Positions 12,725 through 39,832 of a stretch of 64,000 bases of DNA are shown one piece after another; the first letter of the stretch is position 1; each line of letters begins with the position of its first letter. The stretch covers positions 1 through 64,000 of the forward strand of contig CAJWFK010000003.1 of assembly GCA_913031125.1 (NCBI GenBank), read 5' to 3'. This DNA is from an uncultured Woeseia sp. (lineage in GTDB: Bacteria; Pseudomonadota; Gammaproteobacteria; Steroidobacterales; Woeseiaceae). The notes under the pieces were generated by a model. That model did not search any database and had not been told where the DNA came from. It saw nothing but the letters and a program-made list of their open reading frames with translations. The translations under genes were made by a program, and so were the position numbers.

Positions 12725-13327
12725 ATGAACACCTGTGTAGCTGGTTTTGAGGTATTGTGCAATGAACATAACGGTACAGGAGCTAAAAAACTGCAACGCG
12801 AGGCCGAATTTAATCGATTTTTTGCTGAGGTGGAAAAGCGGGCACTTAGAATTGCCGAAATCAGTATTCGTGACCGTGAAGATGCGCTTGACCTTGTGCA
12901 GGAAGCAATGATCAAACTAGTTCGTAATTATTCTGATAAACCATCGGAGGAATGGACACCCCTTTTTTATCGTATTCTTCAGAATAATATTCGAGATTGG
13001 CAGCGTCGCCGCGCTGTGCGTGCTCGGGTAATGGTATGGTTTGGGAAAGATAAGGATGATGATGACTTCGACCCTATCGCTGCCGCTCCTGACCCGGTTG
13101 GCCGGACGCCGGAGGAAGAGTTACAGTCTGATGAGGCGATGCAGACGTTGGAACGCGCGATTTCTAATTTACCAGCAAGACAGAAAGAGGCATTCATACT
13201 ACGTACATTTGAAGGATTAGATGTTGCAGCTACTTCAGTGGCAATGGGGTGTTCTAAGGGTAGTGTCAAAACGCATTATTCGCGAGCTGTACATAAGTTG
13301 CGTGAGAATTTGGGGGAGCATTGGTAA
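12725..13327 (+). CDS. ECF-type sigma-70 family RNA polymerase sigma factor
   Basis: Alternative sigma factor of the extracytoplasmic-function type, 200 residues. Region 2 is at about residues 25-95 (DREDALDLVQEAMIKLVRNY and NNIRDWQRRR). A highly acidic linker (KDKDDDDFD) separates it from region 4 at about 138-195 (LPARQKEAFILRTFEG, then the helix-turn-helix ATSVAMGCSKGSVKTHYSRAVHKL). It is the first gene of a tightly overlapping four-gene operon in which the second gene looks like its membrane-bound anti-sigma partner. The ATG at 12725 is the only reasonable start, though its ribosome binding site is weak. The 234 bases upstream carry the divergent priA/sigma control region and no gene. Target promoters cannot be read here. 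Confidence 0.88.
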   Translation: MNTCVAGFEVLCNEHNGTGAKKLQREAEFNRFFAEVEKRALRIAEISIRDREDALDLVQEAMIKLVRNYSDKPSEEWTPLFYRILQNNIRDWQRRRAVRARVMVWFGKDKDDDDFDPIAAAPDPVGRTPEEELQSDEAMQTLERAISNLPARQKEAFILRTFEGLDVAATSVAMGCSKGSVKTHYSRAVHKLRENLGEHW

Positions 13328-32683: not shown

Positions 32684-34051
32684 ATGGAACTGCCCAAAGC
32701 TCGCCTGACGGAGGGACCGGTTGGTAGGCACTTGGTTGCGATGACGGTGCCTATGTTGTTTGGCATCTCCACAATGATGCTCCAATCATTCATCGATATG
32801 TGGTTTATCGGCCGCGTGGGGGATGATTCTTTAGCCGCGTTAAGTTTTGCTTTTCCAGTAATCATGGTGGTTACGAGTTTAGCGATTGGTTTGGGGGCGG
32901 GTACGTCGTCCGTTGTAGCTCGGGCAATCGGAGCAAATGACCATTCCCGCGCCCAGCGACTGGCGACAGATAGTTTATTCCTGTCTTTTTGCATCACTGT
33001 CGGTATTAGTTTGATCGGGTTTTTTACGACAGGATCGCTATTTCGATTGCTCGGTGCTCCGGAGGATATGATTCCGCTTATCCGCGGGTATATGAATATT
33101 CTTTATTTCGCCGTACCTTTTCTCGTCGTTAGCATGGTCGGAATGACAAGCATGCGAGCTACCGGTGACACTCGACTGCCTAGTATGCTGATGATCATTG
33201 GTTCGATTCTGAACCTAATTCTAGACCCGATTCTTATTTTTGGAATAGGCCCTATCCCTGCAATGGGACTTGAGGGTGCTGCCTGGGCGGGGTTGCTGTC
33301 AAGGGGCGGCATCTTCTTTGCAGTTATGTACTACCTGAAAGTGCGTTCGGATCTTTTAACATTTAATAAGCCAGGCGGAAAAGAGCTGATCACCTCATGG
33401 CGAGATGTTTTGCATGTCGGTATACCTGCAGCTGGGACGAATGCCATTATTCCAATTGCAACCGGAGTGGTCACAGCCATGCTTGCCAGGTACGGCCCGG
33501 AAGCGGTTGCAGGATTCGGTGTTGCGAGCCGGATAGAATCAGTTGTCTTAGTGATGTTTTATGCCCTTTCAGCTGTGATAGGGCCATTTGTAGGACAGAA
33601 TATATCAGCAGGTAAGGCGGATCGAATTTATCAGGCGCTCCGGCTCTGTGCCCTATTCTGTATGGCTTCTGGCCTTATTATTATGGTTCTACTCGCATTA
33701 GCAGGTGACTGGTTACCATCGCTTTTTAGTGACAACGCTATGGTGACTGATGTTACGAAGATGTTTTTGTTTGTTGTGCCAGTCAGCTATGGAACATATG
33801 GAATGGTCATGATTATGAATGCTGCTTTCAATGGTATGGGTAAACCTATGCCGGCAGTAGCCATAAGTGTAGGGCGGATGGTTGTGATTTATTTGCCGCT
33901 TGCCTTCCTGCTGGAGAATGTTTTTGGGATAGCGGGCATATTTGGTGCTTATATGGTGGCAAATATCATTACCGGAATTATCTCTTATAGGTGGGCTAAG
34001 GCATCATTAAAGGCTCAGCATCTTACAGCGACCGAAATAAAGGCCCTTTAG
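32684..34051 (+). CDS. MATE family efflux transporter
   Basis: Twelve-helix MATE-type exporter, 455 residues, from the ATG at 32684 (MELPKARLTEGPVGRHLV). First-half motifs include MFGISTMMLQSFIDMWFIGRVGDDSLAALSFAFPV and IGLGAGTSSVVARAIGANDH; the second half repeats the pattern with GIPAAGTNAIIPIATGVVTAMLARYGPEAVAGFGVASRIE. This looks closer to the MepA/DinF-like bacterial branch than to NorM, and differs clearly from the MATE gene at 21579. It converges on the DinF-like gene with only 12 bases between the stop codons. Substrate unknown. Confidence 0.88.
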   Translation: MELPKARLTEGPVGRHLVAMTVPMLFGISTMMLQSFIDMWFIGRVGDDSLAALSFAFPVIMVVTSLAIGLGAGTSSVVARAIGANDHSRAQRLATDSLFLSFCITVGISLIGFFTTGSLFRLLGAPEDMIPLIRGYMNILYFAVPFLVVSMVGMTSMRATGDTRLPSMLMIIGSILNLILDPILIFGIGPIPAMGLEGAAWAGLLSRGGIFFAVMYYLKVRSDLLTFNKPGGKELITSWRDVLHVGIPAAGTNAIIPIATGVVTAMLARYGPEAVAGFGVASRIESVVLVMFYALSAVIGPFVGQNISAGKADRIYQALRLCALFCMASGLIIMVLLALAGDWLPSLFSDNAMVTDVTKMFLFVVPVSYGTYGMVMIMNAAFNGMGKPMPAVAISVGRMVVIYLPLAFLLENVFGIAGIFGAYMVANIITGIISYRWAKASLKAQHLTATEIKAL

Positions 34052-34063
34052 TGCTACGAAGAA

Positions 34064-35380
34064 CTATAGAGAGGCGAGTACCCGGGTTTTATAAAAATAA
34101 TGCATACCTATTCCACGACTGGCGAGGAATATTGTAACAGCGAGCCAGAGGCCGTGATTACCTAAGTCTTGAAAGACATACCAAGCCGGCAGGAATACAG
34201 CGAACGTCGAAAATAACATGATGTTCCGCATCTCCCTAGCACGTGTCGCACCTACGAAAACGCCATCGTACAGATATGACCAGACACCAATAAGTGGTAG
34301 GACGTAGAACCATGGGATGTACTGGCTAGCTATTTCTATAACGTCTGGTAGGTCTGTAAGTAAACGTATTAGGATTTTGCCACCGCCGATAAAAAAAAGG
34401 CTAAGCAATGCGGCCACGTATAGCGACCACTTTAGCGTTAATCGGACAGTCTGCTGCAATGCTTTTTTGTTTTTGGCTCCAACTGCTTTACCGACTAGTG
34501 CCTCGGCGGCGTGAGCGAAACCATCTAACGCAAAGGAGATCAGGGCTAGCATATTCATGAGCACAGCATTAGCAGCAAGCACCAACCCACCAAGTCTTGC
34601 CCCTGCAGCCGTCACGAAAGCAAATGTAAATATCAAAACCATTGTGCGCACGAGCAGGTGTGCGTTGACCTTGAGATATGCGGTGTATTCTGGAAGTTTG
34701 CTCAGGCGAGAGAGAACTATGCGGCCGCCACGATGTTTGAGAGCCTGGTGCGCGCAAAAAATAGCAAATATTAGTCCGGTGAACTCCGCAATTACCGAGG
34801 CTGCTGCAACTCCGGCGACTTTCATGTCGAGAATTAGAACAAAAATGAGGTCAAGTATGATGTTGGTTATATTGATAATGAGCACAATATAAAGTGGGAT
34901 GCGTGCGTTTTGTAAGCCAAGAAACCAGCCGATTAATACGTAGTTTGCAAGTGTTGCTGGTGCGCTCCAGATCCGAATAGAAAAATACTCGTTGGCAAAT
35001 AATGCAACTCTGGGTTCTGGGCCGAGAAGGGGCATAGCGATTGTGGCAATCGGTATCTGCAGCAGCAGTAAGGCTAGCGCAATGCCCATTGATACGATTA
35101 GTGCTTGGCCAAGGATGAGTTTTAGCTCATCCTCATCACCCGCGCCGTGCGCCTGGGCTGTTATGCCTGTTGTACCCATGCGCAAAAAGTTGAAGCCGGC
35201 GTATAAGAAACCAAAAATTGTTGAGCCGATGGCAACGGCTCCTAGGTAGACAGCGTCCTCCAGGTGACCGGTGACCCCGGTGTCCACCATGCCCAGCAAA
35301 GGTACAGAGATATTAGAGAGAATCATTGGCGCCGCAATGCGCCAGATATCGCGGTCTTTGGGAAGTGGGTTAGAAGGCAT
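34064..35380 (-). CDS. dinF: DinF-like MATE family efflux transporter
   Basis: MATE exporter of the DinF branch, 438 residues, twelve predicted helices. The N-terminus DIWRIAAPMILSNISVPLLGMVDTGVTGHLEDAVYLGAVAIG is strongly reminiscent of E. coli DinF (441 residues), as is LRMGTTGITAQAHGAGDEDE near residues 67-84. The start ATG at 35380 overlaps the end of the glutaryl-CoA dehydrogenase gene by 11 bases, so the two are probably cotranscribed; the coupling is not obviously functional. In E. coli dinF follows lexA and is SOS-induced; there is no lexA gene here, so that regulation should not be assumed. Confidence 0.85.
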   Translation of the reverse strand: MPSNPLPKDRDIWRIAAPMILSNISVPLLGMVDTGVTGHLEDAVYLGAVAIGSTIFGFLYAGFNFLRMGTTGITAQAHGAGDEDELKLILGQALIVSMGIALALLLLQIPIATIAMPLLGPEPRVALFANEYFSIRIWSAPATLANYVLIGWFLGLQNARIPLYIVLIINITNIILDLIFVLILDMKVAGVAAASVIAEFTGLIFAIFCAHQALKHRGGRIVLSRLSKLPEYTAYLKVNAHLLVRTMVLIFTFAFVTAAGARLGGLVLAANAVLMNMLALISFALDGFAHAAEALVGKAVGAKNKKALQQTVRLTLKWSLYVAALLSLFFIGGGKILIRLLTDLPDVIEIASQYIPWFYVLPLIGVWSYLYDGVFVGATRAREMRNIMLFSTFAVFLPAWYVFQDLGNHGLWLAVTIFLASRGIGMHYFYKTRVLASL

Positions 35381-37134: not shown

Positions 37135-38001
37135 TTAGGGTTCCATGGCTTTGCGAAGCTTTTTGATGGCGTTCGCTTCTATCTGGCGGATGCGTTCTGC
37201 CGATACTGAATATTGATCGGCAAGCTCATGTAACGTTAACTTTTTTTCGCCGAGCCATCGAGATTCGACAATGTGTCGGCTACGATCATCAAGAGTTGAG
37301 ATCGCTTCTGTCATACGTGTCGTCGCTTCATCGTACCAGTCTTGAGACTCTACAAGTTGTGCAGGATCAGAATTCGGGCTGGCTAAATAAGCGGACGGTG
37401 AAAATGTTTTATCTTCTTCACCAGAGTCTGGGGCAGGATCGAAGAGAGCATCACGAGCGGTTAGGCGACGTTCCATTTCGGTGACATCCTTAGGCGGGAC
37501 GCCTAGATCTTCGGCTACAGCTTGAGTTTCGGCATATGACAGCCAAGAGAGATTCTTCTTTGCTTTACGGAGGTTAAAGAATAGTTTCCGCTGGGCTTTG
37601 GTAGTTGCAACCTTTACGATTCGCCAGTTACGCAAGACGTATTCGTGAATTTCGGCACGTATCCAATGCACCGCAAAAGATACTAATCGAACGTCAAATG
37701 ATGGATCGAATCGCTTGACAGCTTTCATAAGCCCAACATTACCCTCCTGTATAAGGTCTGCCAGCGGTAACCCATAACCGGTGTAACCTTTAGCAATATG
37801 TACGACGAAACGTAGATGAGCCAGCACCAATTTCCTGGCGGCCTCTAGGTCGTCTTCATCATGGAATTGATGCGATAGTGCCTGCTCAACCTCTTTGCTG
37901 AGTACAGGAATACTTCCAACAGCCTGAAGGTAGGCGTCTAGACTGCCAACAGGACCGCGCAAAGCAATGTCTTGATGCATCTCTGCAACTGCAGTTGTCA
38001 T
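37135..38001 (-). CDS. rpoH: RNA polymerase heat-shock sigma factor RpoH (sigma-32)
   Basis: Directs RNA polymerase to heat-shock promoters. The 288 residues show region 2 (LVLAHLRFVVHIAKGYTGYGLPLADLIQEGNVGLMKAVKRFDP, about 58-100), then SFAVHWIRAEIHEYVLRNWRIVK, the RpoH box QRKLFFNLRKAK (about 138-149) that distinguishes sigma-32 from other sigma factors, and region 4 with LTLHELADQYSVSAERIRQIEANAIKKLR. It follows ftsY-ftsE-ftsX, as in E. coli, after a 149-base spacer. That spacer contains a perfect CIRCE operator 31 bases before the ATG and overlapping a candidate promoter, suggesting HrcA control (see separate entries). An AGAGG ribosome binding site lies about ten bases upstream of the ATG. 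Confidence 0.97.
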   Translation of the reverse strand: MTTAVAEMHQDIALRGPVGSLDAYLQAVGSIPVLSKEVEQALSHQFHDEDDLEAARKLVLAHLRFVVHIAKGYTGYGLPLADLIQEGNVGLMKAVKRFDPSFDVRLVSFAVHWIRAEIHEYVLRNWRIVKVATTKAQRKLFFNLRKAKKNLSWLSYAETQAVAEDLGVPPKDVTEMERRLTARDALFDPAPDSGEEDKTFSPSAYLASPNSDPAQLVESQDWYDEATTRMTEAISTLDDRSRHIVESRWLGEKKLTLHELADQYSVSAERIRQIEANAIKKLRKAMEP

Positions 38002-38028
38002 TGTTTTTAACCTCTCTCTTGATGGATA

Positions 38029-38058
38029 ATTTTAGCACTCTACAAAGGAGAGTGCTAA
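38029..38058 (-). promoter_or_regulatory. Candidate rpoH promoter (extended -10)
   Basis: Read on the minus strand: TTAGCA (38053-38058) as a weak -35, an 18-base spacer, and TAAAAT (38029-38034) as -10 preceded by TGC, giving an extended -10 (TGnTAAAAT). It would start transcription near 38022, about 20 bases before the rpoH ATG. The whole promoter is covered by the CIRCE palindrome. No transcript data are available. Confidence 0.45.
38032..38058. promoter_or_regulatory. CIRCE operator (HrcA-binding inverted repeat) upstream of rpoH
   Basis: A perfect inverted repeat: TTAGCACTC (38032-38040), a nine-base spacer, GAGTGCTAA (38050-38058). This equals the published CIRCE consensus in both arms and in spacer length. 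CIRCE is the operator of the heat-shock repressor HrcA, usually found before groESL or dnaKJ. It lies 31 bases from the rpoH ATG and more than 90 bases from the end of ftsX, so its target should be rpoH. hrcA itself is not in the window. Confidence 0.93.
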
Positions 38059-38150
38059 CAATCGCGGTTTTTCTGATATGTGAGTAAACAAATACTAATA
38101 AAAACAATAATTTAGGAAACATCAGCAAGCATTTATTAGGTTAGATTTTA

Positions 38151-39116
38151 TTATCGCGGTTCGATTTGGCGCAGGTGCCTTGTAGCTGCAGTCCAGGAGC
38201 CAATTAGACCCAAGCCAACCCCGGTACCTATGATTACTAGGATTTCCCGAAAGTCGAGCGCATCTGTTACAAAGTTTGATTGATAGAGTCCGGTCAATGT
38301 TGCGATGGGCGCCTCAAGTGCATAGAGGCCATACCAGACTAAATTTAGAGTAAGTAGTCCGCCCATCAGTCCATACCAAAAACCGGAATAAAGAAATGGC
38401 CTGCGAATAAATGCATTGCTTGCTCCAATGAGTTTCGTGACTTCTATTTCTTCATGACGATTTTGGATATCAAGCCTTATGGTATTCCCAATAATAACGA
38501 GGATAGTTGCACCGAGAAATAGAGTTCCCAAGAAGATGGCCTGTTCCAGAATCGATAGGATGGCATGAAAGCGTCGAACCCATTCTGTATCCAATTGAAC
38601 GAAGTCAATTTCTGGCAGGTTTCCGATTTCTTCGTTTAAAAGCCCAATGGACACCTCGGTATTTGTTGGAGCGGGCCGGATGATAAGGGTATGTGGTAGC
38701 GGGTTAGTAGGAAGGCTGTCAAGGGATGGCCCGAATCCTGACTTATCACGAAACTCTAATAACGCCTCGTCGGCCGATAAGAATATTACCGATTCGATAT
38801 CCGCTCGTTTACCAATAATGGCTGCAAGGCGGCGTCCTTCAGCTTCGGTAACGGAAGCTTTAAGGTAAACCGAAAAATCTAAAGCGCTGTCCCATGAGGT
38901 GCTAGCCGAGCGTGCATTCTTGATGATCAAATGCATCGAAGTTGGTAAGGCGAGCGTGACCCCGATTACAAGTACGGTCATCAGGCTGCCAAATGGATGG
39001 CTACAAATTCGCCCTAAGGCGGTTGCCGATGTTTTTAAATGTCTTAAGAGCCAACTGGTTATGACGCCTGTTTTTCGTGGCGGCCGCAAGGCTTCATTTG
39101 ATTTTACTCGGGCCAA
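38151..39116 (-). CDS. ftsX: Cell division protein FtsX
   Basis: Membrane subunit of the FtsEX complex, which activates peptidoglycan hydrolases at the septum. The 321 residues have a basic cytoplasmic N-terminus, a first helix (about 41-62), a periplasmic domain (DSALDFSVYLKASVTEAEGRRLAAI..., about 70-190) and three more helices, with the family segment RLDIQNRHEEIEVTKLIGASNAFIRRPFLYSG between helices two and three. The start is a TTG at 39116, backed by CGGGAG eight bases upstream, which overlaps the ftsE 3' end by 13 bases. Downstream is the regulated rpoH spacer. Confidence 0.94.
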   Translation of the reverse strand: MARVKSNEALRPPRKTGVITSWLLRHLKTSATALGRICSHPFGSLMTVLVIGVTLALPTSMHLIIKNARSASTSWDSALDFSVYLKASVTEAEGRRLAAIIGKRADIESVIFLSADEALLEFRDKSGFGPSLDSLPTNPLPHTLIIRPAPTNTEVSIGLLNEEIGNLPEIDFVQLDTEWVRRFHAILSILEQAIFLGTLFLGATILVIIGNTIRLDIQNRHEEIEVTKLIGASNAFIRRPFLYSGFWYGLMGGLLTLNLVWYGLYALEAPIATLTGLYQSNFVTDALDFREILVIIGTGVGLGLIGSWTAATRHLRQIEPR

Positions 39117-39832
39117 CGTGAGTTCTCCCGTTCAACTTCTAGCCGTTCAACATACTCGGCAACGACGTCTTCTTCTTCATCAGTTTGTAGCTTCCCATTT
39201 TCAAGAGCGATTCTCCGGCATCCGAGTTGATCGATCAGGGAGATGTCATGACTGGCAATAAGAAGGGTGACACCCACCTCGTTAAACCGGCGAAAAATTC
39301 GCATTACCTCCAGGGAAAGATCGGGGTCAAGATTACCGGTAGGTTCATCGGCGATCAGTAGTTTAGGTCGGCTAACAATCGCACGTGCAATCCCAACGCG
39401 TTGTTGTTCACCAGATGAAAGTGTTGCCGGGAACTGTTTTTCCCTGTTAAGCAGGCTTACTTGGTCCAGTGCGGCACGTACTTTTCGCGAGGCTTCACGG
39501 TGCCCGATGCCGGCAATAACCAATGGAAGTGCCACGTTATCGAAAACCGGTCTGTCATACAGTAGTTTGTGGTCCTGGAAAACCATACCGATTTGACGGC
39601 GATAGGCTGGTATACGGCGGTTAGTTATCCGTTTTGTGTTTTGTTCATCGACGATGATTTGGCCTTTGGTTGGCCGTTCGATTAGTGCAATAAGTCTAAG
39701 TAGGGTGCTTTTGCCAGCCCCAGAGTGCCCTGTTAGGAATGCCATCTCACCTTTTTCCACATACAGGGTCACACCTTTTAGGGCGTCGTGACCTCCTGGG
39801 TAGCGCTTTGTGACTTCTTCTATTCTTATCAA
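39104..39832 (-). CDS. ftsE: Cell division ATP-binding protein FtsE
   Basis: ATPase subunit of FtsEX. The 242 residues contain Walker A GHSGAGKSTLL (about 36-46), the ABC signature LSSGEQQRVGIARAI (about 140-154), Walker B LLIADEPTGNLD and the switch histidine in IASHDISL. A C-terminal tail of about 20 residues (EEEDVVAEYVERLEVERENS) extends beyond typical FtsE. The start is TTG at 39832, giving the usual MIRIEEVTKRYPGG beginning; no ATG or GTG provides it. It lies 28 bases after ftsY and overlaps ftsX by 13 bases. Confidence 0.95.
   Translation of the reverse strand: MIRIEEVTKRYPGGHDALKGVTLYVEKGEMAFLTGHSGAGKSTLLRLIALIERPTKGQIIVDEQNTKRITNRRIPAYRRQIGMVFQDHKLLYDRPVFDNVALPLVIAGIGHREASRKVRAALDQVSLLNREKQFPATLSSGEQQRVGIARAIVSRPKLLIADEPTGNLDPDLSLEVMRIFRRFNEVGVTLLIASHDISLIDQLGCRRIALENGKLQTDEEEDVVAEYVERLEVERENSRWPE

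Follow-up and report, generated by a model that had tools for sequence, protein, structure and literature searches.

The rpoH gene in the analysed window (the whole 64-kb stretch of DNA) is preceded by a palindrome of the type bound by the repressor HrcA, which raises the question of whether synthesis of sigma-32 is under HrcA control in this organism. Classically, HrcA and its operator, CIRCE, control the groESL and dnaK operons, as in Bacillus subtilis, Caulobacter and rhizobia. The textbook heat-shock response is the E. coli model, i.e. that of an organism without HrcA, in which sigma-32 control acts mainly on translation and turnover.

The ORF at 37135-38001 on the minus strand codes for a protein of 288 residues that matches the TIGR02392 signature with 397 bits (cut-off 323) and is 58% identical to E. 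coli RpoH, which bears out its identification as rpoH in the earlier note. A CIRCE element without mismatch, TTAGCACTC-N9-GAGTGCTAA, is found upstream of it at 38032-38058 (minus strand), with 30 bases between the operator and the ATG of rpoH (38001). On the minus strand, the upstream region reads ...GTTAGCACTCTCCTTTGTAGAGTGCTAAAATTATCCATCAAGAGAGAGGTTAAAAACAATG. The perfect CIRCE had been placed at 38029-38058; it is indeed perfect, but the operator itself covers 38032-38058, and the broader span adds the AAT that completes a −10 element. No other match was found in the window at ≤3 mismatches, with shuffled sequences predicting 0.01. The whole assembly (2.98 Mb in 105 contigs, 94% complete) contains exactly two CIRCE elements at ≤3 mismatches, before rpoH and before groES, both of them perfect. 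Its perfect match and its conservation throughout the order make the rpoH element a predicted HrcA site.

The earlier note pointed to hrcA and to further CIRCE sites, at groESL in particular, as what to look for in the genome, and both are present. A full-length hrcA gene is found at G000:C27:7121-8131 (327 bits for a cut-off of 197), followed by a grpE-like ORF, and the only other CIRCE of the assembly is that of groES (G000:C8:90090-90116), 63 nt from the groES ATG. Immediately preceding the groES site is CTTGAAA-N12-ACCCTATTAT, a sequence compatible with either a sigma-32 or a sigma-70 promoter. This arrangement is shared by 32 groES sites of the order, with an invariant TTG at −27 to −25 and TA at −5/−4. 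We found no CIRCE at ≤3 mismatches before hrcA of the window's genome. In family f16, a degenerate CIRCE with two mismatches is located approximately 60 bases before hrcA (G030:C46:7142-7168 and G063:C27:3866-3892), which suggests autoregulation of hrcA there, unlike in the window's genome.

We determined how widely the rpoH operator is conserved, first in the order. Among 147 genomes, the rpoH upstream region could be read in 130, and the nearest named relatives according to RpoH are metagenome assemblies of Woeseiaceae. CIRCE is present in 124 of these 130 upstream regions, in 123 cases at ≤2 mismatches; the remaining one, that of G105, has a spacer of 8 bases rather than 9. The six exceptions are G052, whose site is degenerate, and five members of family f12. 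In all nine sampled genomes of that family (G012, G026, G038, G050, G060, G068, G075, G086 and G092), neither hrcA nor rpoE was detected, and rpoH has no CIRCE wherever its upstream region was read. In G156, a second CIRCE-like right arm with TAAAAT directly precedes the intact rpoH CIRCE, resembling a tandem duplication of the operator-promoter.

We then searched 85 gammaproteobacterial genomes from different families for rpoH and hrcA, and read 76 rpoH upstream regions. Where hrcA is present, 47 of 52 upstream regions contain CIRCE, and one of the five misses concerns a second rpoH copy. Where no hrcA was detected, CIRCE was found in four of 24, two of which belong to assemblies that are 62% and 81% complete. 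Many of the genomes are metagenome assemblies, and relatives were counted separately, the class sample being spread over families. Among 80 named rpoH loci, at least 49 have CIRCE at ≤3 mismatches, including those of Alcanivorax, Thioalkalivibrio, Halieaceae and Chromatiaceae; this is a lower bound because the upstream sequence is incomplete in a few of them. At the same threshold, no CIRCE was found before rpoH in Halomonas, Legionella and Methylophaga. Conservation in relatives had been put forward as a check, and retention of the palindrome goes with retention of hrcA, both in the order and in the class. Among Gammaproteobacteria with hrcA, a predicted HrcA site on rpoH is the usual situation, and E. 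coli is the exception. The site at rpoH is thus real, as first described, but it is not the departure from usual CIRCE targets that it had been taken for, at least among hrcA-bearing members of the class.

A sigma-70-like promoter lies on the operator. On the minus strand, a −35-like TTAGCA (38058-38053; weak, four of six positions) belongs to the left arm of CIRCE and is separated by 18 nt from TAAAAT (38034-38029), itself preceded by TG. The extended −10, TGCTAAAAT (38037-38029), is formed by the right arm followed by AAT, and the overlap with CIRCE described from the single sequence is therefore correct. TTAGCA-N18-TAAAAT was the only sigma-70-like promoter on the minus strand in a scan of positions 37900-38300. 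The final T of the −10 is kept in all 123 sites of the order with standard spacing. In the class, a T occupies the third base flanking the right arm in 49 of 51 rpoH sites vs none of 32 groES CIRCE sites; in this comparison, the putative −10 flank distinguishes the rpoH operators from those of groES.

The transcription start, predicted from the −10 and located approximately 7 nt past it, would leave a 5′ leader of only about 20 nt (38002-38022, minus strand) that carries the Shine-Dalgarno sequence GAGAGAGG (38018-38011). The leader and early coding sequence folded like shuffled sequences (z = 0.82, for one sequence and one assumed start), with the start region unpaired in the predicted fold, and thus gave no support to a thermometer in the short leader. 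An RNA thermometer may nonetheless exist within the rpoH coding region.

In most relatives, the operator covers a second promoter, which was absent from the earlier single-genome reading. Aligning the sites of the order on CIRCE revealed that GGAAC generally starts 16 bases before it. Of the 124 sites, 105 match at least four of the five GGAAC bases at −18 to −14; the control windows yield 4 to 7 matches per 123 sites. The spacers of the rpoH operators begin with xAA, such that left arm and spacer together give TCTAA, a start not seen in groES spacers, while the three bases past the right arm complete TAAAAT at rpoH. In the class, the GGAAC box is found at 34 of 51 rpoH CIRCE sites, in 28 of them exactly at −16. 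The A of TCnnA is present in 31 of the 34 box-bearing sites, compared with five of the 17 sites without box and four of 32 groES sites. The constant distance at which the −35 and −10 elements co-occur speaks for a real sigma-E promoter lying within the operator. Outside the class, no intact GGAAC box was found at the rpoH-CIRCE spacing in a phylum sample searched at ≤2 mismatches. In the order, 101 of 108 rpoE-bearing genomes have the box, vs four of 16 without rpoE (Fisher P = 4.5e-9, uncorrected for kinship), and those four are 73-90% complete assemblies. These data suggest at least four separate joint losses (the window's genome, G096, f13, f6 genera). The nested promoter would be used by RpoE.

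The window's own promoter differs in this respect. At the conserved places, neither a GGAAC-type −35 nor a TCnnA −10 is found in the window: the corresponding minus-strand positions read AGAAAA at 38069-38074 (GGAACT in relatives) and TCTCC at 38047-38051 (TCTAA in relatives). RpoE was not found in the window's genome, where the best ECF match scores 66 bits for a cut-off of 236, while both congeners have the sigma-E box and rpoE. The window itself codes for an ECF-type sigma factor (12806-13306, plus strand) that is not RpoE, with 43.5 bits to the RpoE model. Elsewhere in the window, two MATE-like transporter ORFs, named by look only, are arranged end to end in opposite directions (32684-34051, plus strand, and 34064-35380, minus strand). 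In the congener G125 (G125:C89:41500-52500), the gene order is sdhA-sdhB-sdhE-(unnamed gene)-rpoE-rseA-rseB-rseC-glutaredoxin-like-lepA, with sdhE, rseA and the glutaredoxin-like gene named from their positions and the look of their sequences, without curated matches. In the window's genome (G000:C19:12400-19900), the sdhE-like gene and the glutaredoxin-like gene preceding lepA overlap by four bases. As this junction lies within a single contig, the rpoE-rseA-rseB-rseC block has been deleted, and an assembly gap is ruled out. With the loss of both rpoE and the sigma-E promoter, rpoH of the window is left with sigma-70 and HrcA. Outside family f12, every genome of the order that lacks rpoE and whose rpoH upstream region was read retains CIRCE.

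We consider it highly likely that HrcA, gated by GroEL, blocks the sigma-70 promoter of rpoH from this operator, and that rpoH and groESL are derepressed together. The strongest competing account accepts the HrcA site but gives it a minor role: most rpoH mRNA would come from upstream or read-through promoters, with translation and chaperone-guided turnover as the controlling steps, as they are in E. coli. The neighbourhood of rpoH lends this some weight. ftsE (39104-39832) and ftsX (38151-39116) precede rpoH in the same direction, with 149 bp between ftsX and rpoH, and no intrinsic terminator was found in between, so that read-through could supply rpoH mRNA that HrcA would block poorly. The weakness of the −35 hexamer is another point against the favoured reading. 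Furthermore, sequence comparison showed that RpoH shares the conserved region 2.1 and RpoH box of its E. coli counterpart; given that E. coli sigma-32 is mostly controlled post-transcriptionally, transcription may be a minor input here too. Post-translational control of RpoH may operate alongside HrcA. Nevertheless, the promoter scan detected no second sigma-70-like promoter on the coding strand between ftsX and rpoH, and the class-wide conservation of the operator together with its overlap with two promoter types argues for selection. We therefore regard a merely accessory operator as rather unlikely.

Far less probable is a role of the inverted repeat as an RNA hairpin affecting the stability or translation of a read-through ftsX-rpoH mRNA. 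The arms do pair strongly when the transcript begins upstream, and the ftsX transcript meets no terminator before rpoH. However, 8% of the sites have a G-to-C change in the right arm with no compensation in the left arm, as expected for a DNA site and not for an RNA stem. The arms are kept as sequence, groES is preceded by an identical element, and the occurrence of this element tracks hrcA. The long transcript also folds approximately as its shuffled versions do (z = −0.66). The uncompensated changes in particular led us to disfavour the hairpin. As for a chance palindrome, its likelihood is practically nil, since all 18 specified bases match where only 0.01 matches are expected in the window even with three mismatches, and the site recurs in this position across the class.

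The palindrome before rpoH is thus best viewed as a genuine HrcA operator, with binding and repression deduced from sequence, and the two heat-shock switches, sigma-32 and HrcA, are very probably connected in this organism. In the unstressed cell, HrcA folded by GroEL would occupy CIRCE and block the sigma-70 promoter, keeping rpoH transcription low. When unfolded proteins occupy GroEL, HrcA would become inactive, and rpoH and groESL would be derepressed together. The extra sigma-32 would raise expression of its own regulon, and the rising GroEL level would re-arm HrcA. That GroEL load sets HrcA activity is established for other HrcA proteins. In most relatives, HrcA would gate both the housekeeping input to sigma-32 and an envelope-stress input through the P3-like sigma-E promoter. 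The earlier note proposed a wiring in series, from HrcA to sigma-32 to its regulon. The sites support such a chain, but it is not the only connection: as groESL itself carries a CIRCE downstream of a sigma-70/sigma-32-like promoter, HrcA probably acts on groESL both directly and via sigma-32. This makes a feed-forward loop, with negative feedback via GroEL, likely.

If this circuit is correct, the sigma-32 and HrcA systems, generally presented as alternatives, would form a single circuit with GroEL as their common sensor. Should HrcA control rpoH in most of the Gammaproteobacteria that possess hrcA, the E. coli scheme would represent a derived state. The paired losses, of hrcA with CIRCE and of rpoE with the sigma-E box, would constitute a natural deletion series for the contribution of each input.

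An HrcA site on rpoH has a precedent outside the class, as CIRCE was predicted before Geobacter sulfurreducens rpoH (Rodionov et al. 2004, PMC545781, Table 8). According to that prediction, a perfect CIRCE lies approximately 50 bp before the rpoH start and further ones are found at groESL, which resembles the arrangement described here. G. sulfurreducens belongs to another phylum, and its hrcA-grpE-dnaKJ operon has a CIRCE while that of the window's genome does not; a sigma-E promoter of rpoH is not among the points discussed in the part of that study consulted (PMC545781). Our literature search found no account of an rpoH CIRCE in Gammaproteobacteria or of its nesting with a sigma-E promoter, although an earlier mention is possible. 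The class-wide conservation and the sigma-E nesting may be new. Compared with classical HrcA/CIRCE systems, the operator and the repressor family are the same, as is the placement of the operator on or beside the promoter, but the target in the window is the sigma factor itself rather than a chaperone operon.

The RNA thermometer of E. coli rpoH concerns the same gene, and the coding region of the window's rpoH could still fold; the predicted leader of the latter is only about 20 nt long, and its start region is unpaired in the predicted fold. Lastly, the P3 promoter of E. coli MG1655 rpoH reads GAACTT-N16-TCTGA, spaced like GGAACT-N17-TCTAA of the relatives of the window's genome. No CIRCE was seen before MG1655 rpoH and no hrcA was found in E. 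coli, which served as a control of the hrcA search, whereas the window's genome lacks both the sigma-E elements and rpoE. On balance, we favour an ancestral gammaproteobacterial rpoH promoter with three inputs, in which a single 27-bp HrcA operator would provide the sigma-E −10 with its left arm and the sigma-70 extended −10 with its right arm, such that chaperonin load would gate both supplies of sigma-32. E. coli P3 would then be what remained after the loss of hrcA, and the window's promoter what remained after the loss of rpoE.
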